Position numbers and translations under genes: made by a program | Notes under the pieces: generated by a model | Databases searched by the model: none | Seen by the model: only the letters and a program-made list of their open reading frames with translations | Told to the model about the DNA's origin: nothing | Source of the DNA: a virus | DNA: 26,804 nt | Direction: 5' to 3' (one strand) | Virus record (IMG/VR): IMGVR_UViG_3300025421_000060 | Coordinates: 1-26,804 of that record | In this document: positions 8,833 to 26,804 of the stretch, one piece after another | Layout of the letters: each line of letters opens with the position of its first letter | Numbering within the stretch: position 1 is the first letter of the stretch

Positions 8833-8839
8833 CTTACTG

Positions 8840-10012: not shown

Positions 10013-10058
10013 CATCGAGAGTTGCCAACGGCGATCCTCATGCGCCCACTCAAAAGAC

Positions 10059-10087: not shown

Positions 10088-10116
10088 CCGCCGGACAGAA
10101 AATCCCTCACTATGAT

Positions 10117-10145: not shown

Positions 10146-10187
10146 GGCGAAGCAGTGCAGCGACCACCTACTACACGGGAGAGAGAC

Positions 10188-10391: not shown

Positions 10392-10642
10392 CGAAGGCAA
10401 AGCATGGTCGCAAGCGTCGGCTCCGTTGGAAGCCGTGGGCGAAGTGGGTTCACCTCGGAGCCTTCACTTGGGCAGCAGCCTTCGTGTCGTTCCGAGCGGA
10501 CAGACTAAACGCTCGCACCTTCGATGGTCAGTTGTTCCTCAGTGCTATGTGGACGGTCATCATCTACGCCGTCCTCACGCTGGTTCTCGGGTTCCTGATC
10601 TCGACGAGCGAGAAGCATCCGAGCGGAGACTACGAGGGCTGA
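10388..10642 (+). CDS. Small membrane protein with two predicted helices
   Basis: Eighty-four residues: a basic N-terminus (MTKAKHGRKRRLRWKPWAKW), a first hydrophobic segment around WVHLGAFTWAAAFVSF and a second around AMWTVIIYAVLTLVLGFLI. It starts with GTG coupled to the previous gene. Its 3' end overlaps the end of the convergent glycosyltransferase gene by 13 bases. Function unknown; a membrane-level superinfection or host-takeover role would be a guess. Confidence 0.7.
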   Translation: MTKAKHGRKRRLRWKPWAKWVHLGAFTWAAAFVSFRADRLNARTFDGQLFLSAMWTVIIYAVLTLVLGFLISTSEKHPSGDYEG

Positions 10643-11769: not shown

Positions 11770-11783
11770 AGTGAAATCCTCTC

Positions 11784-13283: not shown

Positions 13284-14575
13284 TACTTGTCTCCTGCCTT
13301 AGTCATACCCTCTGCTGAAATCGCTTCAGCGATGGTTGGATTGTCGAATGGGTCGAGAACTACGCCGCCGAGTGGGGTAATCAGTTTCACGAGGTAGCGG
13401 AATAGTGAAATCGGCTTTGGGGCGGTGGCGAAAAATCGTGCGGCTGAGCCGCTACCACCATAACCGCCCGACCTTTCATGGACACCGACACCAAACATGC
13501 CTACTGCGCTGCTTTTTCCCGCTACTCCGTATTTACTGACGGGGAACCCTGCCAGCACTTCCTCACTACCGTCGTGGATGACGTTGGCAGGCCAGCGACC
13601 AAGTTCGTGCTTCTGCGAACGGTATTCTGGGTTCATGGAGCCGTTGAAATACCGACCTTCGTGGTCAACGGTGGCGTTCGATGTTCCCCAAACTCCGTCC
13701 ATGTTCCCTGCAACCCTTGACCCGTCAATGTTGATCCCGCCGACCCCGTATTCCAAAACATTTGCCGCCACGGTGCCGTCGAGGGGCTTTCTCCCGAGGA
13801 CAATGGACAGGTGCGCTATTTCGTCCTCCGTGTAAGGGAGTTGCTGAAAAAATCGTGCTGCGGAGCCAGAACCGCCAAACCCGCCCCATTTTTCGTGACT
13901 ACCTACATCGAACATGCCGACACCTGCGTTGCGCCGACCCGCCACCCCGTCTTTGCTCGATGGAAAATCCAAAGCAGGGCAACCTTCGGCGCACTCGTAA
14001 ATCGGCGAGGAAACTACTTGCCCCGTCCATCCATCGTGCTCGTATCCATTGACGAAACCCGATGTTGCCTTCGAGCCGCCGCCAAAACTGTCTGGGGCTT
14101 GTCCGATAATCCTGCACTCAGGGAGGTGGGAGATCATCACATTGGCAGGCCACCTTCCGGTGACGGTTGCCGAGCCAGACTTCTTGTTCTTGCCGCCGCC
14201 GGTGGTTTCAAAGTTGCCGGAGGTCATCGTGAGGTCATAGGTGCGTTCCTCCGCCCCGACCCTCGAAGCGTCAATATTCATCGCCCCAACCCCGTATTTC
14301 AGCACATTGGACGCAACGGTTCCCTCTAGGGGCTTGCGAGCCAATACTGCGGAGTTGTGACGCTTGTGGAGCCAGATCAGTTGGTCACGAACCTCGAAAC
14401 CGGCATCTTCGATGGCTACGGCGACACGGTGATACTGCCTCGGCTCGGAAATGGCGATTACATGGCCGCCCGGCTTTAGGACACGGAGGCACTCAACCCA
14501 CAACTCGATCCCGATGCCCTCTAGCGGCATTTCAGCGATGACGCTATCCACGCTGCACTCGGGGAGTTGGTTCAC
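13283..14575 (-). CDS. Catalytically inactive-looking DNA methyltransferase paralogue
   Basis: A 430-residue homologue of the downstream methyltransferase. The DPPY motif is replaced by AEMPLEG (residues 14-20) and DPFLGSGTT by DPFDNPTIAE (408-417), so SAM binding and catalysis should be lost. The flanking LWVECLRVLKPGGHVIAI and YHRVAVAIEDAGFEVRDQLIWL segments are preserved. The middle is duplicated: RKPLEGTVASNVLKYGVGAMN ... GSGSAARFF appears twice (second copy RKPLDGTVAANVLEYGVGG). GTG 14575 is the first start after an in-frame stop; about 13 residues of the paralogue's N-terminus are missing. It may be a DNA-recognition partner or a decaying gene. Confidence 0.8.
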   Translation of the reverse strand: MNQLPECSVDSVIAEMPLEGIGIELWVECLRVLKPGGHVIAISEPRQYHRVAVAIEDAGFEVRDQLIWLHKRHNSAVLARKPLEGTVASNVLKYGVGAMNIDASRVGAEERTYDLTMTSGNFETTGGGKNKKSGSATVTGRWPANVMISHLPECRIIGQAPDSFGGGSKATSGFVNGYEHDGWTGQVVSSPIYECAEGCPALDFPSSKDGVAGRRNAGVGMFDVGSHEKWGGFGGSGSAARFFQQLPYTEDEIAHLSIVLGRKPLDGTVAANVLEYGVGGINIDGSRVAGNMDGVWGTSNATVDHEGRYFNGSMNPEYRSQKHELGRWPANVIHDGSEEVLAGFPVSKYGVAGKSSAVGMFGVGVHERSGGYGGSGSAARFFATAPKPISLFRYLVKLITPLGGVVLDPFDNPTIAEAISAEGMTKAGDK

Positions 14576-14595
14576 GATCCAAAACTTTACAGTAT

Positions 14596-14625
14596 TTCAC
14601 TTATCGCCGCAGGGAGGGCTATGCT
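14596..14625 (+). promoter_or_regulatory. Leaderless promoter of the metallophosphoesterase gene
   Basis: TTCACT (14596-14601), 18 bases, TATGCT (14620-14625), then six bases to ATG 14632. The -35 overlaps an ATTTCAC word that also lies 20 bases before the divergent methyltransferase start, so one protein could control both directions. Confidence 0.55.
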
Positions 14626-14631
14626 GTCCCA

Positions 14632-15372
14632 ATGCCCGAACCGTCAGTTCTCCTCGTCGGCGATCTTCATGGGAACGTCAATGCTCTACAGCGAGCGTTC
14701 CTACAGGCGCACTACGCCGGAGCCTCGGCGATTATCCAACTAGGCGACTTTGGATTTGGCTGGCGGCTCGACGATGGAAAATGTGCGTTCACGAACCTCG
14801 TAGCGGATTTTGTCCGGCAAAGTGAAATAAGATTTCACTTCCTTGACGGAAATCACGAAAACTTCGACCTGCTCTACGCTATTCCAAAAGACGAGAACGG
14901 GCATCGTGAGGTTGCGCCCGGCGTGTTCCACCTCCACAGGGGTTCCAAGTTGTCCATAGGTTCTACGACCTTTCTGGCGATGGGCGGTGCGTATTCTGTG
15001 GACAAGCCCAACCGTCGAGAAGGCGTGTCGTGGTGGCCGCAGGAAGCGATCACCGATGAAGATGTTGAGCGTGCTCTCGCCGCCGGACAGGTTGATGTGC
15101 TGCTCAGTCACGACATTCCTCGTGGCATCCAAGACGAGGAGAAGGTCGCTCCCTACCTCGACCGCATTTTTGGCACCGGAGCCGCAGAGAACGCCTTTGT
15201 CGGGCAAACGCTACTCCGACAGGTGCTCGATGCTTGCGGAGCGCAGCGGGCATTTCACGGGCATCTCCACTACTTCCATGAGACATGGCTAGGTGCCCAA
15301 GGGGAGGGTGTCCTCGTAGTTGGACTGAACAAAGAGGACGAGCCAGACAGCACGATCCTTTTGGAGTGCTAG
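14632..15372 (+). CDS. Calcineurin-like metallophosphoesterase
   Basis: A 246-residue phosphoesterase with all family motifs: VGDLHGN (Asp11, His13), LGDFGFG (Asp39), LDGNHEN (Asn74, His75), LLSHDIP (His160) and FHGHLHY (His209, His211), which bind two metals. Relatives act as protein phosphatases, nucleotidases or RNA 2',3'-cyclic phosphodiesterases. No Shine-Dalgarno precedes the ATG; TATGCT six bases upstream indicates a leaderless transcript. An internal dyad (14821-14839) carries the GTGAAAT word in both directions. Substrate unknown. Confidence 0.88.
   Translation: MPEPSVLLVGDLHGNVNALQRAFLQAHYAGASAIIQLGDFGFGWRLDDGKCAFTNLVADFVRQSEIRFHFLDGNHENFDLLYAIPKDENGHREVAPGVFHLHRGSKLSIGSTTFLAMGGAYSVDKPNRREGVSWWPQEAITDEDVERALAAGQVDVLLSHDIPRGIQDEEKVAPYLDRIFGTGAAENAFVGQTLLRQVLDACGAQRAFHGHLHYFHETWLGAQGEGVLVVGLNKEDEPDSTILLEC
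14821..14839. repeat. Perfect GTGAAAT dyad inside a coding region
   Basis: AGTGAAAT, AAG, ATTTCACT: an 8-bp inverted repeat with a 3-base centre inside the metallophosphoesterase gene. It joins a + and a - copy of the GTGAAAT word that is frequent in the window and would suit a dimeric DNA-binding protein. Confidence 0.6.
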
Positions 15373-15376
15373 GTAG

Positions 15377-15405
15377 TTGCACCACTCCACCGGAGTTGCT
15401 AACCT
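15377..15405 (+). promoter_or_regulatory. Leaderless promoter of the 15413 gene
   Basis: TTGCAC (15377-15382), 17 bases, TAACCT (15400-15405), then seven bases to ATG 15413. The promoter lies in a short gap after the phosphoesterase stop, and the gene has no Shine-Dalgarno. Confidence 0.7.
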
Positions 15406-15412
15406 TCGGTTT

Positions 15413-15679
15413 ATGACCCGCTACGAAATCTACAAGCCTGCCGACGACGGTGAGATGCCGGAAAAATGTGCCGCCTTCGTCAGTAGCACTTTAGAACTCG
15501 GCGCATACCTCGAACGGAACTTCCCGTCAGCACTCTGGGAAAAATCCGCCGGTCTGTTCGACAGCCACTTTGATACCGGCACAGCCACCTTCGACGATGG
15601 CGACGAAATCCGTGTGCGTGGCATTTACCCCTACAGCGATGACTATGTGCATCTCGTCATTCGGAGAGTGATCTCATGA
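15413..15679 (+). CDS. Hypothetical protein
   Basis: Eighty-eight residues starting MTRYEIYKPADDGEMPEKCA, mixed alpha/beta with no family recognised. It is the first gene of a run of small genes and has its own leaderless promoter. Its stop overlaps the next start (ATGA). A GTG in the same frame upstream, or the ATG-like start at 15377, would lie within the promoter and is rejected. Confidence 0.75.
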   Translation: MTRYEIYKPADDGEMPEKCAAFVSSTLELGAYLERNFPSALWEKSAGLFDSHFDTGTATFDDGDEIRVRGIYPYSDDYVHLVIRRVIS

Positions 15680-15870
15680 AAACCCTCGCCAACCTGCTTG
15701 CCCTGATCTTGATTTTGGTCATCATCGCTGCCGTTTGGGTCATGGCGGTCGGACCGATCTTCGCCTACCTCATGTGGGGCTGGAAATCCGCCATCGGTGC
15801 GCTCTGCTTGTCGTTCGCCATCGCTTGCACCTTCCAACTTGTCGCATCATTCCTGCCGAAAAAAAAGTGA
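15676..15870 (+). CDS. Small membrane protein with two helices
   Basis: Sixty-four residues: LLALILILVIIAAVWVMAV forms the first membrane helix, IGALCLSFAIACTFQLVASF the second, with a basic FLPKKK tail. Coupled to the previous gene by ATGA and to the deaminase by GTGA. Function unknown. Confidence 0.75.
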   Translation: MKTLANLLALILILVIIAAVWVMAVGPIFAYLMWGWKSAIGALCLSFAIACTFQLVASFLPKKK

Positions 15871-16382
15871 ACGAGGCTTACGCCTACGAAATCATGCGTC
15901 TCGTCATGGACGCTGCTCAGGGGTCGCCTGATCCGTCCACCCAAAATGCTGCGGTCATCGTAAATCCGTGGCGAGGGGTCGCACCCGAGACGCTGGCGGT
16001 AAATCGCTTCCCGACAGGGGTGCAGGAAAATCCTGAACGGTGGGAGCGACCGGGCAAGTATCTGTTCGTCGAGCACGCCGAGCGCAATGCCATCTACGCT
16101 GCGGCACGACACGGCATCGCAACAAAAAACATGATGCTCGTCGCTGTATGGGCTGCTTGTGCCGACTGTGCCCGAGCCATCATTCAGGCCGAAATATCTA
16201 CGCTCGTCCGCTATGTGAGCACCGAGCACCTGCATTGGAGCGACAGCACGAACGCCGCAGAGAAAATGTTGGAGGAAGCAGGCGTGGAGATCGTGACCCT
16301 TGACCGCCCGATGCCCGATGTTGCACCGCTGCGCCGCAACGAAAATGTGTGGTTGCCGTCAGGTGCTACACCCATCTGCTAA
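15867..16382 (+). CDS. dCMP deaminase-like protein
   Basis: A 171-residue cytidine-deaminase-fold protein. VEHAERNAIYAAARHG (residues 69-84) gives the H-A-E zinc and proton-relay motif, and WAACADCARAII (95-106) the C-x-x-C half; the usual Pro before the first Cys is Ala. Size and the ERNAIYAA segment fit deoxycytidylate deaminases, which turn dCMP to dUMP for dTTP synthesis. GTG 15867 is coupled to the membrane-protein gene (GTGA); no Shine-Dalgarno is visible, only an A-run. Phage enzymes of this kind adjust the nucleotide pool during replication. Confidence 0.82.
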   Translation: MNEAYAYEIMRLVMDAAQGSPDPSTQNAAVIVNPWRGVAPETLAVNRFPTGVQENPERWERPGKYLFVEHAERNAIYAAARHGIATKNMMLVAVWAACADCARAIIQAEISTLVRYVSTEHLHWSDSTNAAEKMLEEAGVEIVTLDRPMPDVAPLRRNENVWLPSGATPIC

Positions 16383-16385
16383 ACT
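16378..16385 (+). promoter_or_regulatory. Extended -10 box of the oligoribonuclease gene
   Basis: TGC followed by TAAACT (16380-16385), six bases before ATG 16392. A TGN motif before the -10 allows weak or absent -35 recognition. The hexamer overlaps the deaminase stop. Confidence 0.5.
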
Positions 16386-16391
16386 AGGGTT

Positions 16392-16916
16392 ATGTTCACA
16401 TGGATAGACACGGAAACGACGGGGTTGGACTACGGGAAGGACGCTCTGCTCGAAATCGCAGTCGTGGTGACTGACGATGACTTGCAGACCATCGCCGAAA
16501 AAACCATCGTCATCAAGCCAAAGCGTCGTGCGCTCCGCCGCATGGACGACTTCGTGACCAAGATGCACACAAAATCCGGTCTGCTCGCCGAACTCAGCAA
16601 GGGCGTGTCGGTGCGTCAGGCGGAAATCCAAATCCTCGGTTTCCTCGATGGCTGTGGCGTTCCAAAGGGCAGCCCGATGGGCGGGAACAGCGTCCACTTC
16701 GACCGCCGCTTCATCGAGCGGGACATGCCCACCCTCGCTAAGCGGTTTGGACACCGCAACATTGACGTTTCGACGCTCGGCGAGTTGGCGAAGCGTTGGC
16801 ACGGGAAGGCATACTCCGAGTGGAGAAAATCCGCTAGCGAGACAGCCCACCGTGCGCTAGACGACATTCGATCCTGCATCGAGCAGTTGAGGTTCTACCG
16901 AAAGTTGGGGCTGTGA
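16392..16916 (+). CDS. orn: Oligoribonuclease-type DEDDh exonuclease
   Basis: A 174-residue 3'-5' exonuclease: WIDTETTGLD (Asp6, Glu8), GNSVHFDRRFI (Asp104) and HRALDDI (His153, Asp158) are the ExoI, II and III motifs of DEDDh nucleases. Length and the MGGNSVHFDRRF segment match oligoribonuclease, which degrades 2-5 nt RNA and pGpG and recycles nucleotides. It follows a dCMP deaminase, so the two may serve nucleotide salvage. The ATG is leaderless-looking. Its stop overlaps the next GTG start. Confidence 0.88.
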   Translation: MFTWIDTETTGLDYGKDALLEIAVVVTDDDLQTIAEKTIVIKPKRRALRRMDDFVTKMHTKSGLLAELSKGVSVRQAEIQILGFLDGCGVPKGSPMGGNSVHFDRRFIERDMPTLAKRFGHRNIDVSTLGELAKRWHGKAYSEWRKSASETAHRALDDIRSCIEQLRFYRKLGL

Positions 16917-17188
16917 CGAAAATCCAATGGCGCAAGCAAGAGGGCTACACCCTCGTCGGCTCTGACCGGATCGCCGAGCAATACATCGGCGAGTGCGGGA
17001 AAATCTACTGCTATGTGGAGTCTCACAAGTGGGACGAGCGAGGCGAACGCTACATCTACCCACGATGGTTGCTGTGGTTCAGTGTGGGCTTCCAAAAATC
17101 CGGCATCTACATCAACGACTTCATCTTCGACACCGATACGGAGGCGAAAGAGGCGGCGGAAAATCTTGTCGCAGCACTCACGGAGTAG
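16913..17188 (+). CDS. Hypothetical protein
   Basis: Ninety-one residues (MTKIQWRKQEGYTLVGSDRI...), rich in aromatic residues with a beta-strand-like middle (RYIYPRWLLWFSVGF) and an acidic helical C-terminus. GTG start coupled to the exonuclease by GTGA. No family recognised. Confidence 0.7.
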   Translation: MTKIQWRKQEGYTLVGSDRIAEQYIGECGKIYCYVESHKWDERGERYIYPRWLLWFSVGFQKSGIYINDFIFDTDTEAKEAAENLVAALTE

Positions 17189-17197
17189 CCTTGTCGT

Positions 17198-17404
17198 ATG
17201 GACGACGAACTTGACGGCTTAGAGGCGGAGATCAGGGCAGAGTTCAGCCCTGCCGAAATCCTGCTCGGCATCAGACAGTTCGCCGAGGTCAAGTTGGGCA
17301 TGAGCGGCGACGAGTTCATCGCCAAAGTCCGAGCCGGAGAAAATGTTGGGCGGCTCCACTCCAAAGCGCAAGATGTGGCTGATCTAGTAGCCTTCCTGCC
17401 ATGA
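17198..17404 (+). CDS. Hypothetical small protein
   Basis: Sixty-eight residues (MDDELDGLEAEIRAEFSPAE...), helical and acidic, function unknown. TAGCCT lies six bases before the ATG and also contains the stop of the preceding gene; GGAG is 12 bases away. Its end overlaps the next start by ATGA. Confidence 0.65.
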   Translation: MDDELDGLEAEIRAEFSPAEILLGIRQFAEVKLGMSGDEFIAKVRAGENVGRLHSKAQDVADLVAFLP

Positions 17405-17805
17405 CGACGCTTCTCGTGCTCTCGCAGGAAAAAAATGTGTGCATCGCACTACTCAACGCCGATGGCGTGTTCCTCAGCACCGTCCCGATCTCAACCGACA
17501 CCGACGAGACGGTCACTCCCGACGACGCTGTGCGCCTTGCCGAAAATGCTGGCTGGCAAACCTACGGCGAATGGATACAAGACGGGGACGAGCGTTGGAT
17601 CATTGCCGTTCCAAAACCCATCACCTTCGCCTTCGCTGGCAGCGAAATCACCGACGAGCAGGCACTCTACAACGCCAAAGCCGCCGGTTATGAGGTTCGA
17701 GAGGTCGTCCGCCAAACGCCCGACTCCGTTGCTGGAAAAATCTACATCGCCTTCTCAGTGGACAAGCCGCATCTCTGGGACTGGGGAACCTATGAACCCT
17801 TTTGA
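17401..17805 (+). CDS. Hypothetical protein
   Basis: A 134-residue protein with a beta-rich N-terminus (MTTLLVLSQEKNVCIALLNA) and two similar helical segments, DDAVRLAENAGWQTYG and DEQALYNAKAAGYEVRE, which look like an internal repeat. Coupled to the preceding gene by ATGA. No family recognised. Confidence 0.7.
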   Translation: MTTLLVLSQEKNVCIALLNADGVFLSTVPISTDTDETVTPDDAVRLAENAGWQTYGEWIQDGDERWIIAVPKPITFAFAGSEITDEQALYNAKAAGYEVREVVRQTPDSVAGKIYIAFSVDKPHLWDWGTYEPF

Positions 17806-17977
17806 TCCAAACCCTGCGCCGTGGCGAGCCTACTCAGACCCCGATGCTTCCGAATGGGTCATCGAGGACGGCAACGGCAACGAAATCCTGTTCGCCTCCA
17901 CGAAGCAAGTGGCTACCGAGACGATCAACATGGTCGTCCGGGCAGTGAACCGCTACAAAGATGGTGAAAAAGCGTGA
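17792..17977 (+). CDS. Hypothetical small protein
   Basis: Sixty-one residues starting MNPFDPNPAPWRAYSDPDAS, with a short beta hairpin (EWVIEDGNGNEILFAS) and a C-terminal helix. ATG 17792 follows GGGGA and overlaps the upstream gene by 14 bases in another frame. A longer frame upstream inside that gene is a shadow. Confidence 0.65.
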   Translation: MNPFDPNPAPWRAYSDPDASEWVIEDGNGNEILFASTKQVATETINMVVRAVNRYKDGEKA

Positions 17978-17996
17978 ACGGGCATCAAATCTCATG

Positions 17997-18002
17997 TAGG
18001 GT
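17997..18002 (+). promoter_or_regulatory. Possible leaderless -10 box
   Basis: TAGGGT six bases before ATG 18009; no clear -35. Support comes only from repeated spacing at other starts in the window. Confidence 0.35.
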
Positions 18003-18008
18003 TGCCGC

Positions 18009-18341
18009 ATGACGCTCGCCAGACGACTGCTTCTGCGCCTCGGGATAATCCAAGAGCCAGAACTTACGGATTTCACGGCACTTGACCCCGAAATCCAAAT
18101 CGCTGTCGCTACGGAAGCCGCCTTAGCCGCCGCCGTAGATTTGATCGTGCTCCAAAAGATCGCATGGAACGAACTGTGCGACAACCTTGCTGAAATGGGC
18201 TGCACCGTTTCGGTTGCGCCACATGCTCAGGAACGCTACGACGAAATCATGAAGCGGCTCAACGCTGCCATGATCGTCGCAGGGGAAAATGTCGGAGTGC
18301 CCGACGAGGTAATGAGAGGATTACGCCGTGACCGACCCTAG
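18009..18341 (+). CDS. Hypothetical helical protein
   Basis: A 110-residue, mostly helical protein (MTLARRLLLRLGIIQEPELT...) with an Ala-rich central helix (VATEAALAAAVDLIVLQK). No Shine-Dalgarno precedes the ATG, fitting a leaderless start at TAGGGT. It overlaps the next gene by 14 bases. Function unknown. Confidence 0.7.
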   Translation: MTLARRLLLRLGIIQEPELTDFTALDPEIQIAVATEAALAAAVDLIVLQKIAWNELCDNLAEMGCTVSVAPHAQERYDEIMKRLNAAMIVAGENVGVPDEVMRGLRRDRP

Positions 18342-18630
18342 CGAGAACCCAATGCCCGAGGGGTTGGACGACGCAGCCGCCGAGAAGGTAGCCGTTGATG
18401 CTGGTATCGAAGCCATTCGGAAAATCCACGCCATCGAACGGCAGATGCTCAACCGAGCGATCCACTCCCTTTCCGAAATCACGGGCAAGTCAGTCCAAGA
18501 TGTGCTGGAAATCTTGGCTGATGGCGTGGACACCGAATACCACGGCGCAGTCCAACAAGCGCAGGCAGCGGCAAAGGTGGCAGAGGCAACAAAATCCCTC
18601 TACATTCCAAAGCCCTACTTGCCCAACTGA
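18328..18630 (+). CDS. Hypothetical helical protein
   Basis: A 100-residue protein, charged and helical, with a Gln/Ala-rich C-terminal helix (VQQAQAAAKVAEATK). GTG 18328 follows GAGAGGA at a good spacing. Its 3' end overlaps the convergent Zn-repeat gene by 16 bases. No family recognised. Confidence 0.7.
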   Translation: MTDPSENPMPEGLDDAAAEKVAVDAGIEAIRKIHAIERQMLNRAIHSLSEITGKSVQDVLEILADGVDTEYHGAVQQAQAAAKVAEATKSLYIPKPYLPN

Positions 18631-19079
18631 GCCTCGTCCCTAAGACGCTGACGACGCTTGCGCTGATACTCCCGCATCGCCGTCACGCAAATCTCGCAAC
18701 GGCAACGGTGGTTGTCGTAGGCCGAAATCCCGTGCTTGATGGGACGGACTGAACGGCGAGGACAGCGAGGATCACCACACGAGCAAATCCTCCCGTCTGC
18801 CATGCTTCTCGCCTGCCGATACTTTTGGCGGTAGAGCCGTAGGGCATCGGTGCACTCTGGGCATCGGCAGCCGTGGTTGGTGTAGCGGCTGTAGTAACCG
18901 TGAGGCACGACAAACTTTTCATCGTGCACAACTTTGCAGGTCGGACACAGTTCAGGCTCCGGCTCAGGTTCGACGACTGCGGTGGCAGGCACGAAAATAA
19001 TGCTCGGGTCGGTGGGTTGCGCTGGCTCGTCGTAAGCGTCCCACCAGTCCAACTCTGGGCGGAAGGAAAATGCGGTCAT
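18615..19079 (-). CDS. Protein with two NHxCRCxxC zinc repeats
   Basis: A 154-residue protein with tandem units: HGYYSRYTNHGCRCPECTDA (about residues 60-79) and HGISAYDNHRCRCEICVTAM (about 117-136), each followed by a basic helix (LRLYRQKYRQ, REYQRKRRQ). Between them lies CSCGDPRCPRRSV, and before them CPTC. The repeat N-H-x-C-R-C-x2-C with a basic helix is known from actinophage small proteins and from the ends of some HNH nucleases and likely binds DNA. Start 19079 has a weak Shine-Dalgarno. It follows the acidic gene at four bases. Confidence 0.72.
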   Translation of the reverse strand: MTAFSFRPELDWWDAYDEPAQPTDPSIIFVPATAVVEPEPEPELCPTCKVVHDEKFVVPHGYYSRYTNHGCRCPECTDALRLYRQKYRQARSMADGRICSCGDPRCPRRSVRPIKHGISAYDNHRCRCEICVTAMREYQRKRRQRLRDEAQLGK

Positions 19080-19083
19080 TCCG

Positions 19084-19515
19084 CTACCTCACGATCTCGT
19101 AGTGATGGGGGACTGCTCGCTTGTGGCTGTTAGCGGGCGAAAATCTTGGGTTCGGGTATGCCTTCGATGAACCGCCATGCACCGAGAGTGGCGTTGGCTC
19201 AGGCGTGGGCTTCGGGTTCAGCACGGTCTTTTCCGTGAGCGCAACCAACGCATCGTCCCAAGCATCGAAATCAAAACTGCCGTCCTGATCGAAGCCATCG
19301 TCGTCCGTCGTGTCGCCGAAAATCTTGTCGTATTCCTCGGTGTCGAACAAGTAGAACGACAACTCATCCAACTCGCAACCGATGAGATAGCACAGATCAA
19401 GGTCGCTCATGGTGCGAACCAAATGTTCCGGCGTGTCGTAGGCTTCAGACACCGCCACAATGTCTGCCTCGCTCATGTTGCGAGCGAGCAAGCGTGGGTC
19501 AAGTGCTCTGGTCAT
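19084..19515 (-). CDS. Acidic hypothetical protein
   Basis: A 143-residue protein whose middle is strongly acidic (IFGDTTDDDGFDQDGSFDFD), followed by a Pro-rich linker and a basic tail. No domain recognised; the charge pattern could mimic DNA. The start overlaps the upstream gene's stop as TAATG. A longer frame to 19596 lies inside that gene and is not used. Confidence 0.7.
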   Translation of the reverse strand: MTRALDPRLLARNMSEADIVAVSEAYDTPEHLVRTMSDLDLCYLIGCELDELSFYLFDTEEYDKIFGDTTDDDGFDQDGSFDFDAWDDALVALTEKTVLNPKPTPEPTPLSVHGGSSKAYPNPRFSPANSHKRAVPHHYEIVR

Positions 19516-19934
19516 TAGTTCCACCACCCCTCGGTGGCACGAACCCAGTCGTTCTCCGGCACAGCATCGCCGTAGCCGTCTCGGTTCCAAACGCACACGG
19601 TCGCAGGCATCTCGCCCTCGCCGAAAATCACGCTCAACTCCTCGATGGTGTAGCCAGCGTTTTGCTCCATCTCCAACATGGAGATCACCTGACGGTTGAG
19701 CGGGAGCCGATAGAGTTCGCCGGTCACCACATCGCTAGGGTGCTCGGACGGCACGAGAAACGGGAAGCCTCGGTGCGAGGCGTAGTGCAGCCGAGCGTAG
19801 GGCATCTGAACCGTGCCCAAATCTTCGATGATCTCGCCTGCGATCCAGTTGTGAAGGCGTTGCCCCTTCCGCAGCGTGCCGTAAGCGAAAAATGTGATGG
19901 TCGGTGTTTCCTGTTGTGTAGGTGTAGTGGTCAT
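19515..19934 (-). CDS. Gamma-glutamylcyclotransferase-like (AIG2/GGCT) protein
   Basis: A 139-residue GGCT-fold protein. FFAYGTLRKGQRLH (residues 15-28) is the family's Y-G-T/S-L substrate-binding loop, followed by GTVQMPYARLHYA and VVTGELYRLP; MLEMEQNAGYTIEEL (86-100) supplies the acidic catalytic residue and the usual Tyr. Such enzymes release 5-oxoproline from gamma-glutamyl amides. That is chemically the reverse of what amidoligases build. The ATG is seven bases after TATAGT, so the mRNA is probably leaderless. The promoter has the same CTCAAC layout as the amidoligase promoter. Confidence 0.82.
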   Translation of the reverse strand: MTTTPTQQETPTITFFAYGTLRKGQRLHNWIAGEIIEDLGTVQMPYARLHYASHRGFPFLVPSEHPSDVVTGELYRLPLNRQVISMLEMEQNAGYTIEELSVIFGEGEMPATVCVWNRDGYGDAVPENDWVRATEGWWN

Positions 19935-19941
19935 GGGTGGA

Positions 19942-19971
19942 ACTATAGCACCGTTGAGTAGCACTGTGCAA
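19942..19971 (-). promoter_or_regulatory. Cyclotransferase promoter with CTCAAC element
   Basis: On the - strand TTGCAC (19971-19966), 18 bases, TATAGT (19947-19942), then seven bases to the ATG. The spacer holds GCTACTCAAC ending five bases before the -10. Confidence 0.75.
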
Positions 19972-20004
19972 ATCGCACTACAGCACATTGTCGCACCCCC
20001 TCGC

Positions 20005-20020
20005 TAAACTGTGGTATAGT
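20005..20020 (+). promoter_or_regulatory. Candidate promoter of the 20050 gene
   Basis: TATAGT (20015-20020) is preceded by TGTGG (an imperfect TGN extension) and by TCGCAC 18 bases upstream. TAAACT (20005-20010) is a second possible -10. It is divergent from the cyclotransferase promoter less than 50 bases away. Confidence 0.5.
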
Positions 20021-20049
20021 TAGTTCACCGGCAGAGAACAGGAGAAAAA

Positions 20050-20874
20050 ATGCCATACGACATAGCAGGAATCCGCCGCCTTGTGCAGGAAAGGGCAGAG
20101 ACGATCCAAGGTGCTGAGCGCACCTCGGGGTATGTCTCGTGTCCGGCGACGACCGGAGCATTGGTCGCTGACTTGCTCGACCTCGACATTCGAGAGGCGG
20201 GCAGCCCTTCGATGATCGAAGTGCTCGTCCCCGACTTTGCGACCGTGCGAGACGAAGTTATCGCCATCAGTGCCGAACTGCCGGAGCGTGTGTCCAGCCG
20301 CATCAACCCTGCGTTCTCGAACTGCCTTGACGCTTCCCGCTTCGAGGACAGCCAAATCGTCCGCAGTGCCTTCGCCTCACGCATGTCGCAGTTGATTACC
20401 AACCACCCCTACCGTCCGACCTCGTTCGATGAGTTGGGCATCATGCAACTGAGCGAACTCGACCAGATCGCCGCCATGCTTCAGGAAAATCCTACGGTTG
20501 AGGTGGACGAGCAACGCCGTTCCTCCAATATCCTGAACTACCGCATCGGCACTAGTGGCTACGGTGCACGCCTGAATGTGCGTGCTCGCATCATGCTCAG
20601 CGACGATGCGGTTCCCTCGGTCGAGGTCAAGATCGCCGAAATCTCGACCGGAAACGATGCCCTCGACATGGCTCTGAACTTGCTTATCAACATGAACGGC
20701 AACTACGAGTTGATCCTCACCCAAAATCTCGCAGGCTCGCCTGCTGCGGTCAATGGTGTCGTCGCTCGGTTCGCCGACGACCTCAGCAACGCCGTCACCG
20801 CAGCCATCAGCGTAAAGTGCGAGCAGTTCGCTGCCGAGGGCATCGACATTCGCTCCGCCGACATGCTGAACTAG
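20050..20874 (+). CDS. Hypothetical 274-residue protein
   Basis: Starts MPYDIAGIRRLVQERAETIQ after a clear AGGAG. The C-terminal half has an alpha/beta look with VPSVEVKIAEIS and MALNLLINMNGNYELILTQNL. No catalytic signature is visible and I do not recognise the family. It is the first gene of the last rightward operon and is followed closely by a small Zn protein. A virion or DNA-metabolism role cannot be told from sequence. Confidence 0.78.
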   Translation: MPYDIAGIRRLVQERAETIQGAERTSGYVSCPATTGALVADLLDLDIREAGSPSMIEVLVPDFATVRDEVIAISAELPERVSSRINPAFSNCLDASRFEDSQIVRSAFASRMSQLITNHPYRPTSFDELGIMQLSELDQIAAMLQENPTVEVDEQRRSSNILNYRIGTSGYGARLNVRARIMLSDDAVPSVEVKIAEISTGNDALDMALNLLINMNGNYELILTQNLAGSPAAVNGVVARFADDLSNAVTAAISVKCEQFAAEGIDIRSADMLN

Positions 20875-20889
20875 GGGGAGAGAAAATCC

Positions 20890-21102
20890 ATGACCTCCAC
20901 ATACACACTCGTCGAACACACTTGTTTCCTCTGCGGTCGGAAGGGAGGTATGCTTGTGGACACCGAGGGGCTTCGCCGATGGCAAAGCGATCTCCCTATC
21001 CAAGATGCGTTCCCCACCATGACCCCATCGGAGCGGGAGTTTCTGATCGACGGCGTTTGCCCTCCATGCCAAGACTTGATCTTTGCCGAGCCGGAGGAGT
21101 GA
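20890..21102 (+). CDS. Small zinc-binding protein
   Basis: Seventy residues with HTCFLCGRKGG near residue 10 and GVCPPCQD near residue 55, a four-Cys zinc-ribbon arrangement. The start follows GGGGGAGAG. Function unknown; similar proteins are common in actinobacterial phages. Confidence 0.75.
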   Translation: MTSTYTLVEHTCFLCGRKGGMLVDTEGLRRWQSDLPIQDAFPTMTPSEREFLIDGVCPPCQDLIFAEPEE

Positions 21103-21105
21103 ACA

Positions 21106-21432
21106 ATGGACAAGATGCCGGACGGAAAATCCGTCACGGAGCGGTATCTCTACGCCGCTACCCACGATAGTTCCAAGCACCCCGGTCGCCGATCCATTTG
21201 GACGGTCGAACACGGCAAGGGTTCCAACTGCATCATGGTCCGCCACGCTGGCGACGAGGTGCCGGAAAATCTGCAAACCCAACTTGACGAGATCGGTCTG
21301 GTGCTGGCATCATTCGTAGGTCAGCGTCAGGTCTGCAAGTCAGGCAGGCACGAACGCTATCTGCTCTCCAAGATGAAGGGCATTACCAAATCATCATCAT
21401 CATCGTCTTACCAGCCCGAGAGGATTTTCTGA
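21106..21432 (+). CDS. Hypothetical protein
   Basis: A 108-residue protein (MDKMPDGKSVTERYLYAATH...), with a Ser run (KSSSSSSYQ) near the C-terminus encoded by repeated tca/tcg codons. GGAGGAGTGA before the ATG is a strong ribosome site. It ends directly against the WhiB start (TGA-ATG). No family recognised. Confidence 0.7.
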   Translation: MDKMPDGKSVTERYLYAATHDSSKHPGRRSIWTVEHGKGSNCIMVRHAGDEVPENLQTQLDEIGLVLASFVGQRQVCKSGRHERYLLSKMKGITKSSSSSSYQPERIF

Positions 21433-21702
21433 ATGGCGAGAGTGCTGTCCGGTCGTAGCGAATGGATGCCGAGGGCAGCGTGCCGAGGTATGAACCTCAG
21501 TGCCTTTTTCCCAGAGGAAGGCATGAATGTAAGCAAAGAAGTTGCCGACACCTGCAAGTCGTGTCCGGTTTTGGAACGCTGCCGTGAGTGGGCGTTGCGC
21601 CACGAAACCTACGGCTATTTTGGAGGGCTGAGCGCAACCGAGCGACACAAGGTTCGTCGGCAAATGAAAATCGCTTTGGTCGCACCGCACCATCTCGTTT
21701 AG
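21433..21702 (+). CDS. WhiB-family Fe-S transcriptional regulator
   Basis: An 89-residue WhiB protein: WMPRAACRG (Cys17), CKSCPVLERC (Cys41, Cys44, Cys50) supply the four cluster ligands, followed by GYFGGLSATER, the beta-turn and DNA-binding region. WhiB proteins bind a [4Fe-4S] cluster and the sigma-A subunit and occur in actinobacteria and their phages, where some (such as TM4 WhiB) repress host whiB genes and affect septation or superinfection. The start follows GAGAGGA. It may also act on the phage promoters described here. Confidence 0.93.
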   Translation: MARVLSGRSEWMPRAACRGMNLSAFFPEEGMNVSKEVADTCKSCPVLERCREWALRHETYGYFGGLSATERHKVRRQMKIALVAPHHLV

Positions 21703-21725
21703 AGGGCTGTTCCAAATCTCAGGGC

Positions 21726-21731
21726 TAGCAT
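21726..21731 (+). promoter_or_regulatory. Possible leaderless -10 box of the endolysin gene
   Basis: TAGCAT six bases before ATG 21738, with no Shine-Dalgarno and no clear -35. Confidence 0.35.
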
Positions 21732-21737
21732 TGTGCT

Positions 21738-22979
21738 ATGCCACTGCTCAACAAGTTCCGCCAACTGATCGCCTCCGCCGTCCTGCTCGGCGTGTTTACG
21801 CTCGGTTTCACCTCGCCCACCAGCGCAGCGAAAATCGCCGTGCACTCAAACTGCAAGACTTGGGTTCGGGTCATCGACGTTTCCAGCAACAACCCGCACC
21901 CGTTTGACTGGACGAAGATCGCCAAAAACGGCGTTTCGGGCATCTACATCAAGAACTCCGAGGGTGTGGCTTACGTCAACCCGAACTTTGCCCCTGATGC
22001 AGCCGCAGCGAAAAAAGTTGGTATCCCTTATGGCGGCTACTACTTTGCTCGTCCCGGCAAGGCTTCCGGGGCGGCTTCCGCTACCTTCTTCGTGAAATCC
22101 GGCGGCGCAACCGGAACTTTGCCGCCCGCTTTGGATTTGGAAGTCAATGAACTGAGCGTTCCAGCGACCGGCAAGTGGGCGGAGCAGTGGTTTGCAACGG
22201 TGAAATCCCTCACCGGACGCACCCCGATCCTCTACACGGGCGGCTACTACGGCTGGGGAACCGCACAGGGGCTTACTGAAATGCGCCTCTGGCTCGCCGC
22301 CTACCCGCTTGGCTACGCCAATGTGAGCCACGGCGTTTGCTCGCTGCCGCAACCACAAACGCCGTCGGCATGGATTTCACAGGGTTGGTCAATGTGGCAA
22401 TACACAAGCGTCGCCAGCATCCCCGGCATCGCTGGGCATGTTGATCTGTCCGCCGCAGAACCGGCGTGGTGGAGTTCGGTCACCGGCTCCGGCATCAAGC
22501 CGCCCACGCCCGGCCAGAACCGCTATCCAGCCCCTATCTATGCCTACGGCTCGCACGGACCGAAGGTTGTCTATCTACAGAAAATCCTGCACCACTACGG
22601 CTACCTGACTGCGAAGCAGGTTGATGGCGTGTTTGGAGAGCAGACCTACCTCGCAGTCCGCAAGTGGCAGTATCGGATCGGTATTCCGGTGGACGGCAAG
22701 TGGTCCTCGCTGACCGACCATGCGACGAACTGGTACCTGAAGCACGCCCGCCCCTACCCGTGGCCTCGGAACTACCCCGTGCTGCGTGTCGGCTCGGTCA
22801 ATGCACCGAAAATCGTGCAACTACAGCAGTTGCTCACAAAGCATGGATTTGCGGTCAAGGCCGACGGCATCTTTGGCAGTTCTACTGCTGGAAAGTTGCG
22901 TGGCTTCCAAAAGAAGCACCACATTCACATCTCCGGCATTACGACCTACCAGACTTGGGTTGCGCTGTGGCAGCCGTAG
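21738..22979 (+). CDS. Secreted GH25 endolysin with two peptidoglycan-binding repeats
   Basis: A 413-residue lysin. Residues 1-31 look like a secretion signal (LIASAVLLGVFTLGFTSPTSA then AKI), unusual for lysins that rely on holins. The GH25 lysozyme domain follows: VIDVSSNN with the catalytic Asp near 47, PPALDLEVNEL with the acidic pair, ILYTGGYYGWG, LWLAAYPLG and MWQYTS. Two PG_binding_1-type repeats follow (VVYLQKILHHYGYL...VDGVFGEQT and IVQLQQLLTKHGF...ADGIFGSST). GH25 enzymes cut the MurNAc-GlcNAc bond. The 3' end overlaps the membrane-protein gene after it. Confidence 0.92.
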   Translation: MPLLNKFRQLIASAVLLGVFTLGFTSPTSAAKIAVHSNCKTWVRVIDVSSNNPHPFDWTKIAKNGVSGIYIKNSEGVAYVNPNFAPDAAAAKKVGIPYGGYYFARPGKASGAASATFFVKSGGATGTLPPALDLEVNELSVPATGKWAEQWFATVKSLTGRTPILYTGGYYGWGTAQGLTEMRLWLAAYPLGYANVSHGVCSLPQPQTPSAWISQGWSMWQYTSVASIPGIAGHVDLSAAEPAWWSSVTGSGIKPPTPGQNRYPAPIYAYGSHGPKVVYLQKILHHYGYLTAKQVDGVFGEQTYLAVRKWQYRIGIPVDGKWSSLTDHATNWYLKHARPYPWPRNYPVLRVGSVNAPKIVQLQQLLTKHGFAVKADGIFGSSTAGKLRGFQKKHHIHISGITTYQTWVALWQP

Positions 22980-23260
22980 TCGTCACGCAGAACACCTACA
23001 ACATCTGGCAGACCGTTCTCGCCCTCGTCCTGATTACCGGAGCGTTGGCACGATGGCTGAACAGCCGCTTGCCGAAAAAATCCGAGATGGACGACCTCAA
23101 AAAGGCACTCCGAGACGCTAAAGAGAGCAACTCGGCGGAGAACAGCCGCATCATGGCACTTGTCCGTGAGGTCAAGTTTGACCTGCGCCAGACGACGGCT
23201 CGTTTGGAACGCCACATCGACAGGGTGAAGGAAAATCCTGCGGAGATCGGCGATGAGTGA
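22967..23260 (+). CDS. Membrane protein with coiled coil, possible holin or spanin-like
   Basis: A 97-residue protein: one N-terminal membrane helix (IWQTVLALVLITGALARWL) followed by a charged coiled coil (MDDLKKALRDAKESN ... LERHIDRVKE). GTG 22967 overlaps the endolysin by 13 bases. Small membrane proteins just after the endolysin are often holins or regulators of lysis, so a lysis role is likely but unproven. The start is the only plausible one after the helix boundary. Confidence 0.65.
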   Translation: MAAVVVTQNTYNIWQTVLALVLITGALARWLNSRLPKKSEMDDLKKALRDAKESNSAENSRIMALVREVKFDLRQTTARLERHIDRVKENPAEIGDE

Positions 23261-23696
23261 CGACAAAGCCGTAGCCGCCCATGTCCAAAAGTTCACCCAT
23301 TCCTATCTCGTCGTCTATCCCGAGCACTCCGCACGGGAGGACGATCCGCACTACATCGACTTTCATCACTTGCAGCGAGAATGGAAAAAAGACCCCGAGA
23401 AGTGGCGTTGCGCCTACGGCGTAGAGAAGGGGGATTTTACTGAGTGCGACTTGGCGCACCCTTTGGAAATCCATCACGCCCACGTCGAGTTCGCCCTGCT
23501 CAACTCCATTGACCTCGCCCTGTTCGAGAAGCGGTATCCGGGCATCTCCGATCCCGACCACCTCGGCGCATGGGTTGAGAGCGCAGCGAACTGCATCGTC
23601 TATTGCGCTCGCCATCATCGGGGCCACGCCGGAGTTCACAGTGCATCGGCGGCTGACTGGGAAGCCTCGTTCGTTATCCGAAATCTCATTCAGTAG
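23253..23696 (+). CDS. HNH endonuclease-like protein
   Basis: A 147-residue protein with LEIHHAHVEFAL (71-82) and ESAANCIVYCARHHRGHAGVH (109-129), the H-H ... N ... H layout of the HNH nuclease fold, with Cys53, Cys65 and Cys113/118 possibly binding zinc. Stand-alone phage HNH proteins act as homing enzymes or with terminase in packaging. It overlaps the preceding gene by 8 bases and sits in the lysis region, so a mobile origin is plausible. Confidence 0.72.
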   Translation: MSDDKAVAAHVQKFTHSYLVVYPEHSAREDDPHYIDFHHLQREWKKDPEKWRCAYGVEKGDFTECDLAHPLEIHHAHVEFALLNSIDLALFEKRYPGISDPDHLGAWVESAANCIVYCARHHRGHAGVHSASAADWEASFVIRNLIQ

Positions 23697-23698
23697 CC

Positions 23699-24103
23699 AT
23701 GTGGCTTACCGCCCTCGCCACCCTTGTCTGCTTCCTCGGAGCCAATGTGTTCTCCGTGTTCATGGTGCAGGCCGAAGCCCGAAATGATGCCTTCAAGGCG
23801 GGAGTGTTCGAGGCGGGCTATGCCCTGTTTTGGATCGTCGCTGCTCGCTACTCAGTGGACACGCTGAACGGTCACGGCACCGCTCGAACGGTAGTCATGC
23901 TGACGGCGTTGGTGCTCGGCAACTTTGAGGGCGCATACATCGGGACGAAATGGGGAAAGCGGTTCGTTCGAGATCACGATGCCGAGGAAGTGGACGAGAG
24001 GCTCGCTGAGGCGGAGGCTGCGCTGCTCATGGCGGAAAAAACGCTGGAAGAACTCACAGACGAGATCGCTCACCATCACAAGCACGAGGGTCACGAACAC
24101 TAG
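23699..24103 (+). CDS. Membrane protein with His-rich tail, holin candidate
   Basis: A 134-residue protein with hydrophobic segments at WLTALATLVCFLGANVFSVF, AGYALFWIVAARYS and VMLTALVLGNFEGAYIG, then an acidic coiled coil and the tail HHHKHEGHEH. Three membrane helices near the endolysin suggest a holin; the His-rich tail could bind metal. The start lies two bases after the upstream stop. A large inverted repeat follows the gene. Confidence 0.7.
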   Translation: MWLTALATLVCFLGANVFSVFMVQAEARNDAFKAGVFEAGYALFWIVAARYSVDTLNGHGTARTVVMLTALVLGNFEGAYIGTKWGKRFVRDHDAEEVDERLAEAEAALLMAEKTLEELTDEIAHHHKHEGHEH

Positions 24104-24104
24104 A

Positions 24105-24170
24105 ACCGGTGCCGCAGGGCATCGAGGAAACATTCCTAACGACCAGTATCACCCGCCCTACGGCACCGGT
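24105..24170 (+). terminator. Long imperfect inverted repeat with inner hairpin
   Basis: ACCGGTGCCGCAGGGC (24105-24120) pairs with 24155-24170 over 16 bp with one mismatch. The 34-base loop contains a further small hairpin (AGGAA/TTCCT). A GGGCG...CGCCC pair follows downstream near 24171-24194, and a T-run (TATTTTTT) near 24218. It probably ends the lysis operon, but its two-level structure is larger than a simple terminator. Confidence 0.6.
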
Positions 24171-24263
24171 GGGCGTTAGTGTAGTGCGCCCGAAAATCCT
24201 ATGCAAATCGGCATGGCTATTTTTTGTCCGCACGCTCCGGTAGGGTTTATTCCGAGTGCTATA

Positions 24264-24280
24264 CTCAACCCACCTATAGA
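24264..24280 (+). promoter_or_regulatory. CTCAAC-type promoter of the 24292 gene
   Basis: CTCAAC (24264-24269), five bases, TATAGA (24275-24280), the same layout as the amidoligase and cyclotransferase promoters, with GTGCTATA before it. No convincing -35. GAGAGGA then ATG 24292 follow closely. Confidence 0.55.
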
Positions 24281-24291
24281 GAGGACTGGCT

Positions 24292-24456
24292 ATGACCAGC
24301 GAAACAACCAGCGTCACTGACTACGCAACCGCACTGACGGTTGGACGAACCATCGTCAAGACCGAAATCATTGACGGCAATCAGGAAATCACCTTGGACG
24401 ACGGAACCTTCATCTTGGTCCACAACGGCAACCTCGCTCACGGTGGCTTTGAGTGA
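24292..24456 (+). CDS. Hypothetical small protein
   Basis: Fifty-four residues (MTSETTSVTDYATALTVGRT...), beta-rich, with EITLDDGTFILVHNGNLAHG at the end. ATG 24292 follows GAGAGGA at six bases. Its stop overlaps the next gene as GTGA. Function unknown. Its CTCAAC-type promoter makes it a candidate third member of the amidoligase regulon. Confidence 0.65.
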   Translation: MTSETTSVTDYATALTVGRTIVKTEIIDGNQEITLDDGTFILVHNGNLAHGGFE

Positions 24457-24632
24457 TCTACCGAGTGGAGTTCCGTGCCTACAAAGATGCGGCGAAGCAC
24501 GATGACTTTGTGGTGAAGCGGTCATACGCCATCACAAAGCGTCGTGCCCAACGCCTGCTCGATGAGTGGTTCGCAGCGACGGCTGAGGAAAAATCCCTGT
24601 ATTTAGGGCGCATTGAGGCTGTTTGGAAATAA
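24453..24632 (+). CDS. Hypothetical small basic protein
   Basis: Fifty-nine residues (MIYRVEFRAYKDAAKHDDFV...), beta strand then basic helix (ITKRRAQRLLDEWFAATAEE). GTG start coupled by GTGA to the preceding gene. No family recognised. Confidence 0.6.
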   Translation: MIYRVEFRAYKDAAKHDDFVVKRSYAITKRRAQRLLDEWFAATAEEKSLYLGRIEAVWK

Positions 24633-24635
24633 CAC

Positions 24636-24664
24636 TTGACGACGACACACCCCTACTGTATGAT
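24636..24664 (+). promoter_or_regulatory. Strong promoter of the 24711 gene
   Basis: TTGACG (24636-24641), 17 bases, TATGAT (24659-24664): close to the SigA consensus with ideal spacing. The leader is about 40 bases and carries GAGAGGA before ATG 24711. Confidence 0.8.
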
Positions 24665-24710
24665 GGTTGTGTAGTCGGAAGTGCCCATAGACCAGAGAGA
24701 GGAAAATCAC

Positions 24711-25316
24711 ATGACCCAGACCTTCGCCCCCGCCACCGAGAAGCAGGTGGCCTACCTGTTCTCGCTCGCCGCCAAGCGAGTTGTCCCCGCCGACCTCATG
24801 GAAGAAATCTCCTCCGCCGAGGACGGCTTGCTCGCCAAGGCGACCGCCTCGCACCTGATCGACCTCGTGAAGGAACTGCCCTACCGCCGGACTGCGCCTA
24901 CGAGCGTGCAGACGGTCACCTCCGCCCCTGTCCGCCAAATCCCTGTCGGGCTGTGGACTGTCGTGGACGGCGAGGGTCATGTGACCCTGAAGGTCGAGGA
25001 AGCCTCGTGGGCGAACGGCAAGACCGTCATCTCCTACCTGTCCGGCTCGGACAACGAGCGTGCCTACACCGGCTTCGCCTTCATGACCGAGCAGGGCGTA
25101 AAGGTGTGGGGTTCCAAGTCCCACCTCCACCGCCAAATCGCAGCGGCTCAGTTCCTCACGACCGGATCGCTCGACGAGGCACGGGAGAACTTCCTTCAGG
25201 TGGCTGAGGCTCACGCCCTTGCATCGGGTTCGTGCCTCGCCTGCGGTCGCACCCTCACGGTGCCCGCAAGCCTCCACCGTGGCCTCGGTCCGGTGTGCGC
25301 CCAACGCCTGCTCTAA
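24711..25316 (+). CDS. Protein with C-terminal zinc ribbon (DUF6011-like)
   Basis: A 201-residue protein. Near the N-terminus EKQVAYLFSLAAKRVVPADL is a short motif seen in actinophage proteins of unknown role; the C-terminus CLACGRTLTVPASLHRGLGPVCAQRL is the Cys-x2-Cys-Gly-Arg ... Gly-x-Gly-Pro-x-Cys pattern of the DUF6011 zinc ribbon. The middle is beta-rich. The start at 24711 follows GAGAGGA and a strong promoter, so it may be highly expressed. Function unknown; DNA or RNA binding is plausible. Family name from memory of the motif. Confidence 0.75.
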   Translation: MTQTFAPATEKQVAYLFSLAAKRVVPADLMEEISSAEDGLLAKATASHLIDLVKELPYRRTAPTSVQTVTSAPVRQIPVGLWTVVDGEGHVTLKVEEASWANGKTVISYLSGSDNERAYTGFAFMTEQGVKVWGSKSHLHRQIAAAQFLTTGSLDEARENFLQVAEAHALASGSCLACGRTLTVPASLHRGLGPVCAQRLL

Positions 25317-25495
25317 TGGCGAAGCGCAACGGGAAAATCCGAAAGGAGGTTGCCACCCTGAGCGGGCTGCGTCGAGAGGCGCACTTTGCTCAGGGTGGTA
25401 ATCCCGTTCAATGGTTCGGCGGCAAGGCGACGACCGTGCCGAACAAAAAGCGGGAAGCAAGCCGCAACGCCTGTCGTCGCAACTCACAAGACTGA
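25316..25495 (+). CDS. Small basic protein
   Basis: Fifty-nine residues (MAKRNGKIRKEVATLSGLRR...), strongly basic with a single Cys near the C-terminus. TAATG overlap couples it to the upstream gene. It may bind nucleic acid; no family recognised. Confidence 0.6.
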   Translation: MAKRNGKIRKEVATLSGLRREAHFAQGGNPVQWFGGKATTVPNKKREASRNACRRNSQD

Positions 25496-25543
25496 GTTCA
25501 CCAAAACTTGATGTAACATTTCCAACAAGGAGCGTGCCCCACT

Positions 25544-26605: not shown

Positions 26606-26623
26606 ACTCTGCAAATCGCACTA

Positions 26624-26640
26624 CTCAACTCTGCTAGAGT
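26624..26640 (+). promoter_or_regulatory. CTCAAC-type promoter of the 26673 gene
   Basis: CTCAAC (26624-26629), five bases, TAGAGT (26635-26640). The spacer GCACTACTCAACTCTGC differs from the amidoligase promoter spacer by one base. The 15-bp word TGCAAATCGCACTAC just upstream also occurs by the cyclotransferase promoter. Confidence 0.65.
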
Positions 26641-26672
26641 ATCCCCACCGATACCGATAGCAGAGGTGAAAG

Positions 26673-26804
26673 ATGCTCAGCCAATACCAAATCGCCGAAG
26701 CCATTGAAGCCGAGGTGGAGCGTATGCAGGGGCTTGTGGACGAAATCCGACAGGCAGCCGTGGACACCGCCCGTGCTGAGGCGGACTTCAAGGTGCGCTT
26801 TGCA
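26673..26804 (+). CDS. Hypothetical protein, 3' end outside the window
   Basis: The first 44 residues (MLSQYQIAEAIEAEVERMQG...) are open to the end of the window. They form a charged helix, likely coiled coil. GAGGTGA precedes the ATG at a usual spacing. Family cannot be told from this fragment. Confidence 0.65.
   Translation, partial: MLSQYQIAEAIEAEVERMQGLVDEIRQAAVDTARAEADFKVRFA

Follow-up and report, generated by a model that had tools for sequence, protein, structure and literature searches.

The phage record IMGVR_UViG_3300025421_000060 of IMG/VR is a stretch of 26.8 kb (26,804 nucleotides; hereafter, the window), whose habitat we take from the IMG sample numbers to be lake water. The word GAAAAT occurs in the window 34 times on the + strand and once on the − strand and has the highest strand skew among all 6-mers there. 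These copies belong to a polar domain that begins at position 10,098, passes the window end, and extends to ~59,780 on a map joined from overlapping contigs, where we counted 81 copies on + and three on − (81:3; null expectation, 23.9:4.8; paired counts are given below as +:−). Selection of some kind at the DNA level very probably underlies this pattern. An earlier sequence-only reading of the window had proposed a strand-polar GAAAAT word from 13,428 to 25,337, with 26–28 copies by hand count and a single reverse copy; the word proved real, with counts of 30:1 in that interval.

We compared the observed counts with 200 codon-preserving shuffles, in which every protein and the overall codon usage were preserved. 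The genes were calls of a simple purpose-written caller and are approximate. The shuffles of the window gave 8.9 copies on + (sd 2.3, max 16) against the 34 observed, and 2.4 on − against one. This null is generous because intergenic and gene-overlap bases were left unshuffled, so that real sites lying there stay in it. In the composite, 70:2 copies were observed against 20.6:4.6 in shuffles preserving proteins and codons; GAAAAT was enriched, GAAAAG was unchanged, and GAAAAC was depleted (17 vs 29.8 expected). The best polar 6-mer scored 10.0 in the domain and, by the same score, 3.2–5.2 in unrelated control phages and segments, namely T5 (two parts), phiKMV, D29, tf, and G016. Literature searches on the GAAAAT word turned up no paper, as far as those searches reached, and scanning the window for Rfam families and tRNAs gave no match.

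The domain was followed on both sides of the window through overlapping contigs, and ~96 kb of this phage species was mapped in this way, partly via strains at 94–99% identity. On the left, contig G004 (3300025778_000076) is 99.9% identical to the window and adds 4.7 kb; each of the 22 sites in the first 20 kb of the window falls within a 36-mer that is identical in G004. On the right, contig G018 (3300004807_000113) matches the window end at 99.9% identity and adds 21.8 kb, with GAAAAT at 39:1 in window orientation, and L096 and contig G027 (3300004807_000199) carry the map to ~67.7 kb. On this joined map, the counts were 2:0 before 10 kb; 21:0, 18:1, 14:0, 17:2, and 11:0 in the successive 10 kb bins from 10 to 60 kb; and 2:2 beyond the last of these bins. 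The distribution is thus uneven, being dense from 10.1 to 59.8 kb and sparse elsewhere, where the copies are still mostly on +. Contig G026, which lies farther left (~94–99% identity over most of the overlap), has 5:1 in its 25.5 kb, and G024 and G025 contribute a handful of + copies (3:0 and 5:0, with some sites in common). The 9 kb contig G022, at ~97% identity, has 16:0. The sequence-only reading had placed the start of the tract at ~13.4 kb; the sites in fact begin farther left, at 10,098. A change of strand at an origin or terminus, which had also been suggested, was sought over ~96 kb and not found; the density of the word changes at ~10 and ~60 kb while its strand stays the same.

The excess of GAAAAT did not depend on the direction of genes. 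Called genes hold 70 of the 81 + sites of the domain. Between 10.0 and 48.6 kb, 58 genic + sites were found against 8.7 expected, with an excess in all six phase/direction classes: 28, 6, and 15 for phases 0, 1, and 2 of rightward genes (4.4, 0.7, and 2.6 expected) and 4, 3, and 2 by phase in leftward genes (0.6, 0.2, and 0.1 expected). The − copies in the same interval numbered two (~3.8 expected). In the leftward genes of this 38.7 kb part of the domain the count was 9:0, so that all nine sites oppose the gene direction. The densities per kb were 1.61 in rightward genes, 1.57 in leftward genes, and 4.24 in intergenic DNA from 10.0 to 48.6 kb, and 1.49, 1.45, and 3.64, respectively, from 10 to 60 kb. 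These values bear out the claims that the polarity persists through leftward genes and that the word falls in all codon phases.

Codon choice bends to the word. In rightward genes of the 38.7 kb part, the Glu-Asn codon pairs were GAA AAT (28), GAA AAC (11), GAG AAT (0), and GAG AAC (16). Asn was thus encoded by AAT in 28 of 39 cases after GAA and in none of 16 after GAG, compared with 56 of 328 after other codons (AAC, 272).

One + copy of the window (1279–1284) precedes the domain, in DNA where the word is at background density. The domain part of the window (10,098–26,804) has 33 + sites and one − site and continues on G018, L096, and G027. Its first site (10,098–10,103) lies in the divergent intergenic region 9920–10,187. 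Three sites then fall in leftward genes: 10,986–10,991 in gene 10,630–11,769, 12,767–12,772 in the methyltransferase gene 11,784–13,283, and 13,963–13,968 in the methyltransferase-like gene 13,283–14,575. These are followed by 14,777–14,782, 16,026–16,031, 16,262–16,267, 16,341–16,346, 16,825–16,830, 16,918–16,923, 16,999–17,004, 17,159–17,164, 17,339–17,344, 17,542–17,547, 18,285–18,290, and 18,420–18,425. A further five are within leftward genes: 18,993–18,998 and 19,066–19,071 in gene 18,615–19,079, 19,139–19,144 and 19,318–19,323 in gene 19,084–19,515, and 19,623–19,628 in gene 19,515–19,934. At 19,139 the − strand gene reads AGA TTT TCG, as had been noted. Sites at 20,485–20,490, 20,882–20,887, 21,125–21,130, and 21,265–21,270 precede the sole reverse copy of the whole window (ATTTTC, 21,424–21,429, −), at the place already given for it. 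After 21,666–21,671, three sites lie within the endolysin gene (21,830–21,835, 22,580–22,585, and 22,808–22,813), and the rest are at 23,231–23,236, 24,192–24,197 (intergenic), 24,702–24,707, and 25,333–25,338, the last of the window. The ten example positions given by the sequence-only reading were correct within one base (18,419, 21,124, and 24,703 are 18,420, 21,125, and 24,702). The longer form GGAAAATCC occurs seven times on + and never on −, including the sites at 16,026, 18,420, 20,485, 21,125, 23,231, and 25,333.

Among the 68 sites found in the 38.7 kb part of the domain, GAAAAT was followed by C in 45, G in 17, A in 6, and T in none; other positions outside the core carried little information. 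Words with longer A runs (GAAAAAT and up) were also polar in the domain (A5, 10:2; A6, 4:0; A7, 1:0), and GAAAT (A3) was more weakly polar (90:37). The mean spacing of domain sites was ~0.57 kb, and the smallest distance between two GAAAAT sites was 73 bp (post hoc; P = 0.0002 if sites are placed uniformly). Inside that distance of a GAAAAT site we found none of the 15 GA5–8T variants (~3.9 expected; derived by hand from the rate used for GAAAT, uniform spread, post hoc) and 12 of the 90 GAAAT copies (~23 expected; uniform spread, post hoc). Codon shuffles are uninformative for spacing because shuffled copies keep the places fixed by the protein.

As a check, the sequence-only reading had proposed to look in related phages for the word with its polarity. 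Among the relatives, whose proteins have a median identity of ~46–60% to this phage, GAAAAT was not enriched in G001, G002, G003, G006, G008, G009, G010, G020, or G021. The 121 kb G001 had 22:20 against a null of 22:20, and the counts were 33:28 in G006, 27:13 in G009, 4:5 in G008, and 7:17 in G010. Among 20 aligned genic sites, only that at 22,808 in the endolysin gene is also GAAAAT in G001. In the stretch of G001 matching the domain, the top polar 7-mer was TGAAATC (29:2 vs 6.8:2.6); only one of its + copies lies in a leftward gene, too few to judge independence from gene direction there. In contig G021, GTGAAATC occurs at 24:2, with its genic copies all in rightward genes; the same word is not polar in the window (9:10) and stands at 14:4 in the 38.7 kb domain part. 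It is possible, though less likely than not, that a group of large phages labels one strand over about half of the genome with dozens of short polar sites, and that sister phages keep the polar region in place but swap the word (GAAAATC here, TGAAATC in G001), in which case the sites and a fast-evolving reader enzyme of the phage would co-evolve as a phage-encoded strand label for nicking, marking, or packaging.

Other words are over-represented across the family. In G006 (108.7 kb), TAGTGAAA occurs 66/34 times (16/9 expected), TGCTGAAA 63/40 times (9/7), and TTTGGAA 97/99 times (28/25). Such words were found in G001, G006, G008, and G009 on both strands and in all phases, and were not seen in G011 and G016. 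We set TAGTGAAA, TGCTGAAA, and TTTGGAA aside as a separate phenomenon; they are strongly enriched yet lie mostly on both strands. Separately, L006 17–7352 (contig 3300034198_023999) carries AACACCA at 17:0 and CAACACCA at 16:0, with all but one copy within 5.3 kb. AACACCA was not flagged by the codon shuffles; therefore, most of its copies apparently fall beyond the called genes or in the gaps between them. A 482 bp segment of the window (25,635–26,116) is 98–99% identical in G019, G020, and G021 while its flanks do not align, which marks a recent exchange between sister phages. We dropped the idea that change relative to G001 is concentrated at GAAAAT sites: they carry 2.8 mismatches against 2.0 for all 6-mers, but A+T-rich 6-mers carry 2.4–2.9.

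We ascribe the pattern to DNA-level selection for a polar site, as first suggested by the sequence-only reading, because shuffles keeping the proteins and codon bias fail to give the counts, the density is independent of gene direction, all phases are in excess, and GAAAAC falls as GAAAAT rises, a combination that a mutation bias at one base would not produce. GAAAAT, preferably followed by C, would then be a strand-oriented DNA recognition site, placed about every 0.6 kb on one strand over about half of the genome and recognized irrespective of gene layout. An enzyme encoded by the phage and specific for one DNA strand may use these sites, nicking, or otherwise cutting or marking, one strand during replication or packaging. 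As the most likely mechanism we tentatively favor nicking of a specific strand, or a comparable cut or mark confined to one strand, because among known systems the pattern is closest to the one-strand nick motifs found in phages such as tf, Rembedalsseter, and T5. A candidate nickase is encoded by a small gene at 23,253–23,696 (+) with a weak HNH endonuclease match (phrog_8048, E = 4.7e-05).

Several points weigh against nicking. The HNH matches of the phage are weak, and the nickase stays a candidate. The other enriched words of the family are mostly not polar. The divergence of GAAAAT sites from G001 is ordinary after A+T matching (p = 0.16), with one-mismatch neighbors at 1.84. In G022, all 13 compared sites are kept and one is gained; this was rejected as a sign of strong purifying selection, since 88% of all 6-mers are kept there and the difference is not significant. 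GAAAAT resembles no known nick consensus. The nick motifs described in the available text of PMC3517423 and PMC11780129 are ~9 bp or longer with at most 14 mapped sites, whereas GAAAAT has a 6 bp core and 81 sites; moreover, GAAAAT is known here from assembled metagenomic contigs, in which a nick would leave no trace.

A signal in transcription or RNA is the alternative that survives best, and we consider it unlikely. Here the word would mark a long rightward transcript from ~10.1 kb that reads through the leftward genes and would act in pausing, antitermination, a stoperator-like roadblock, or RNA binding. The left edge of the domain does lie between divergent genes, where the + strand has a promoter-like match (TTGACG-17-TATCAT, 10,117–10,145), of a kind found at chance frequency (5 found, 5.8 expected); the domain spans mostly rightward genes, and intergenic DNA has the highest density. 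Stoperators, as reported in PMC6550527, are likewise asymmetric, differ from one relative to another, and are for the most part oriented with transcription. However, the density is the same in leftward genes, the word is missing from rightward genes before 10 kb, and the matches to the stoperator consensus in D29 (11 on +, 4 on −) are intergenic in 14 of 15 cases, compared with 70 genic + sites of 81 here. mRNA function in general fits poorly.

Sites for lagging-strand priming, or other replication-fork sites of one replication arm, are a less probable source of the pattern. The strand is fixed over ~50 kb, and the mean spacing and the 73 bp minimum would suit such sites; however, the other arm should bear the reverse word, and counts left of 10 kb are low and mostly + (2:0; 5:1 in G026). 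Known primase sites, at ~3 bases, also count against priming.

Lower again we place a phage methyltransferase that marks one strand at GAAAAT, or a strand-bias effect of Type III restriction as in T7 and EcoP15. Two adjoining leftward genes of methyltransferase families (11,784–14,575, −) are candidate readers of an asymmetric word, and a third PF01555 gene, a candidate of the methyltransferase class, lies at ~49.48–50.61 kb on L101; nothing links these genes to GAAAAT. The 36 EcoP15 sites of T7 are all in one orientation, according to the portion of PMC3874151 available. Evasion of a Type III enzyme needs the loss of one orientation only; here the + copies rise (81 vs 23.9) and the − copies change little (3 vs 4.8).

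We see only a slim chance that the sites are Chi-like, guiding or halting a recombination nuclease of the host or the phage. Chi sites are typically short, oriented, and over-represented, but a Chi set by the host should be common to relatives that exchange DNA, as in the 482 bp segment at ~98%, and those relatives do not use GAAAAT. One-strand mutational or codon-usage bias, raised earlier as the alternative to selection, is very improbable: parts of the window have an A-rich + strand and the shuffles themselves are asymmetric (8.9:2.4), but the shuffles keep codon usage, the neighboring words GAAAAC and GAAAAG do not rise with GAAAAT, and leftward genes behave as rightward ones, so that mutation bias and codon bias fit poorly.

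Some neighboring features were also recorded. The adjoining methyltransferase-like genes have in common a 54 bp direct repeat (12,319–12,371 and 13,547–13,600; 93–98% identical). The terminase and portal genes (window 4841–6577; L080 17,271–20,000) contain inserted domains matching PHROGs of helicase, primase, and other inserts, and these inserts look like inteins; ORF 5686–6153, overlapping in another frame, is HNH-like by eye. Amidoligase, class II glutamine amidotransferase, and gamma-glutamyl cyclotransferase-like genes lie at 8018–9919 and 19,515–19,988, and the nicked phage tf likewise has an amidoligase, a glutamine amidotransferase, and an AIG2-like gene. A gene among the virion genes of L080 (807–3224, −) carries an ADP-ribosyltransferase domain (PF03496), and L086 has a ParB-like gene (PF02195; 16,505–17,713), whose G001 counterpart strongly matches ParB-like families. 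A host search by terminase in bacterial genomes gave 29 pattern matches and no relative.

Among known systems, Cluster A mycobacteriophage stoperators are similar to GAAAAT in being asymmetric, present in many copies, and drifting in motif between relatives, as far as PMC6550527 was available; unlike stoperators, which follow transcription, are mostly intergenic, and are 13 bp long, GAAAAT ignores gene direction, is mostly genic, and has a core of 6 bp. The T7/EcoP15 bias shares the single orientation, but it needs no excess of copies, whereas here the excess is the signal. Chi shares the short oriented word, but GAAAAT is not common to sister phages and is bounded to half of the genome. The closest likeness is to the nicked phages T5, phiKMV, tf, and Rembedalsseter, in which the motif is on one strand, independent of gene direction, enriched, and unevenly spread. 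In tf, 14 nicks are all in the top strand, 11 of them in one half, as given in the available text of PMC3517423; we found its nick motif TACTRTGMC at 14:0, and two of its nine genic copies run against leftward genes. For T5, the four major interruptions listed in the first 100 kb of the record are all annotated on −, while genes run both ways. According to PMC11780129, Rembedalsseter has 13 nick-linked copies of its motif, all on one strand, and the motif is enriched in 60 related phages and concentrated on one side of terL, as GAAAAT is here. In the parts of PMC3517423 and PMC11780129 at hand, the function of phage nicks is called unknown. GAAAAT is about five times denser than the tf motif and, in contrast to nick motifs shared across relatives, is not kept by G001, G006, G009, and others. 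Strand-confined phage motifs are known mainly from nicked phages; a system with ~80 sites that override codon choice, defined borders, and a different word in its sisters gives far more statistical power on site function, and sequence alone can flag such candidates for nanopore tests.

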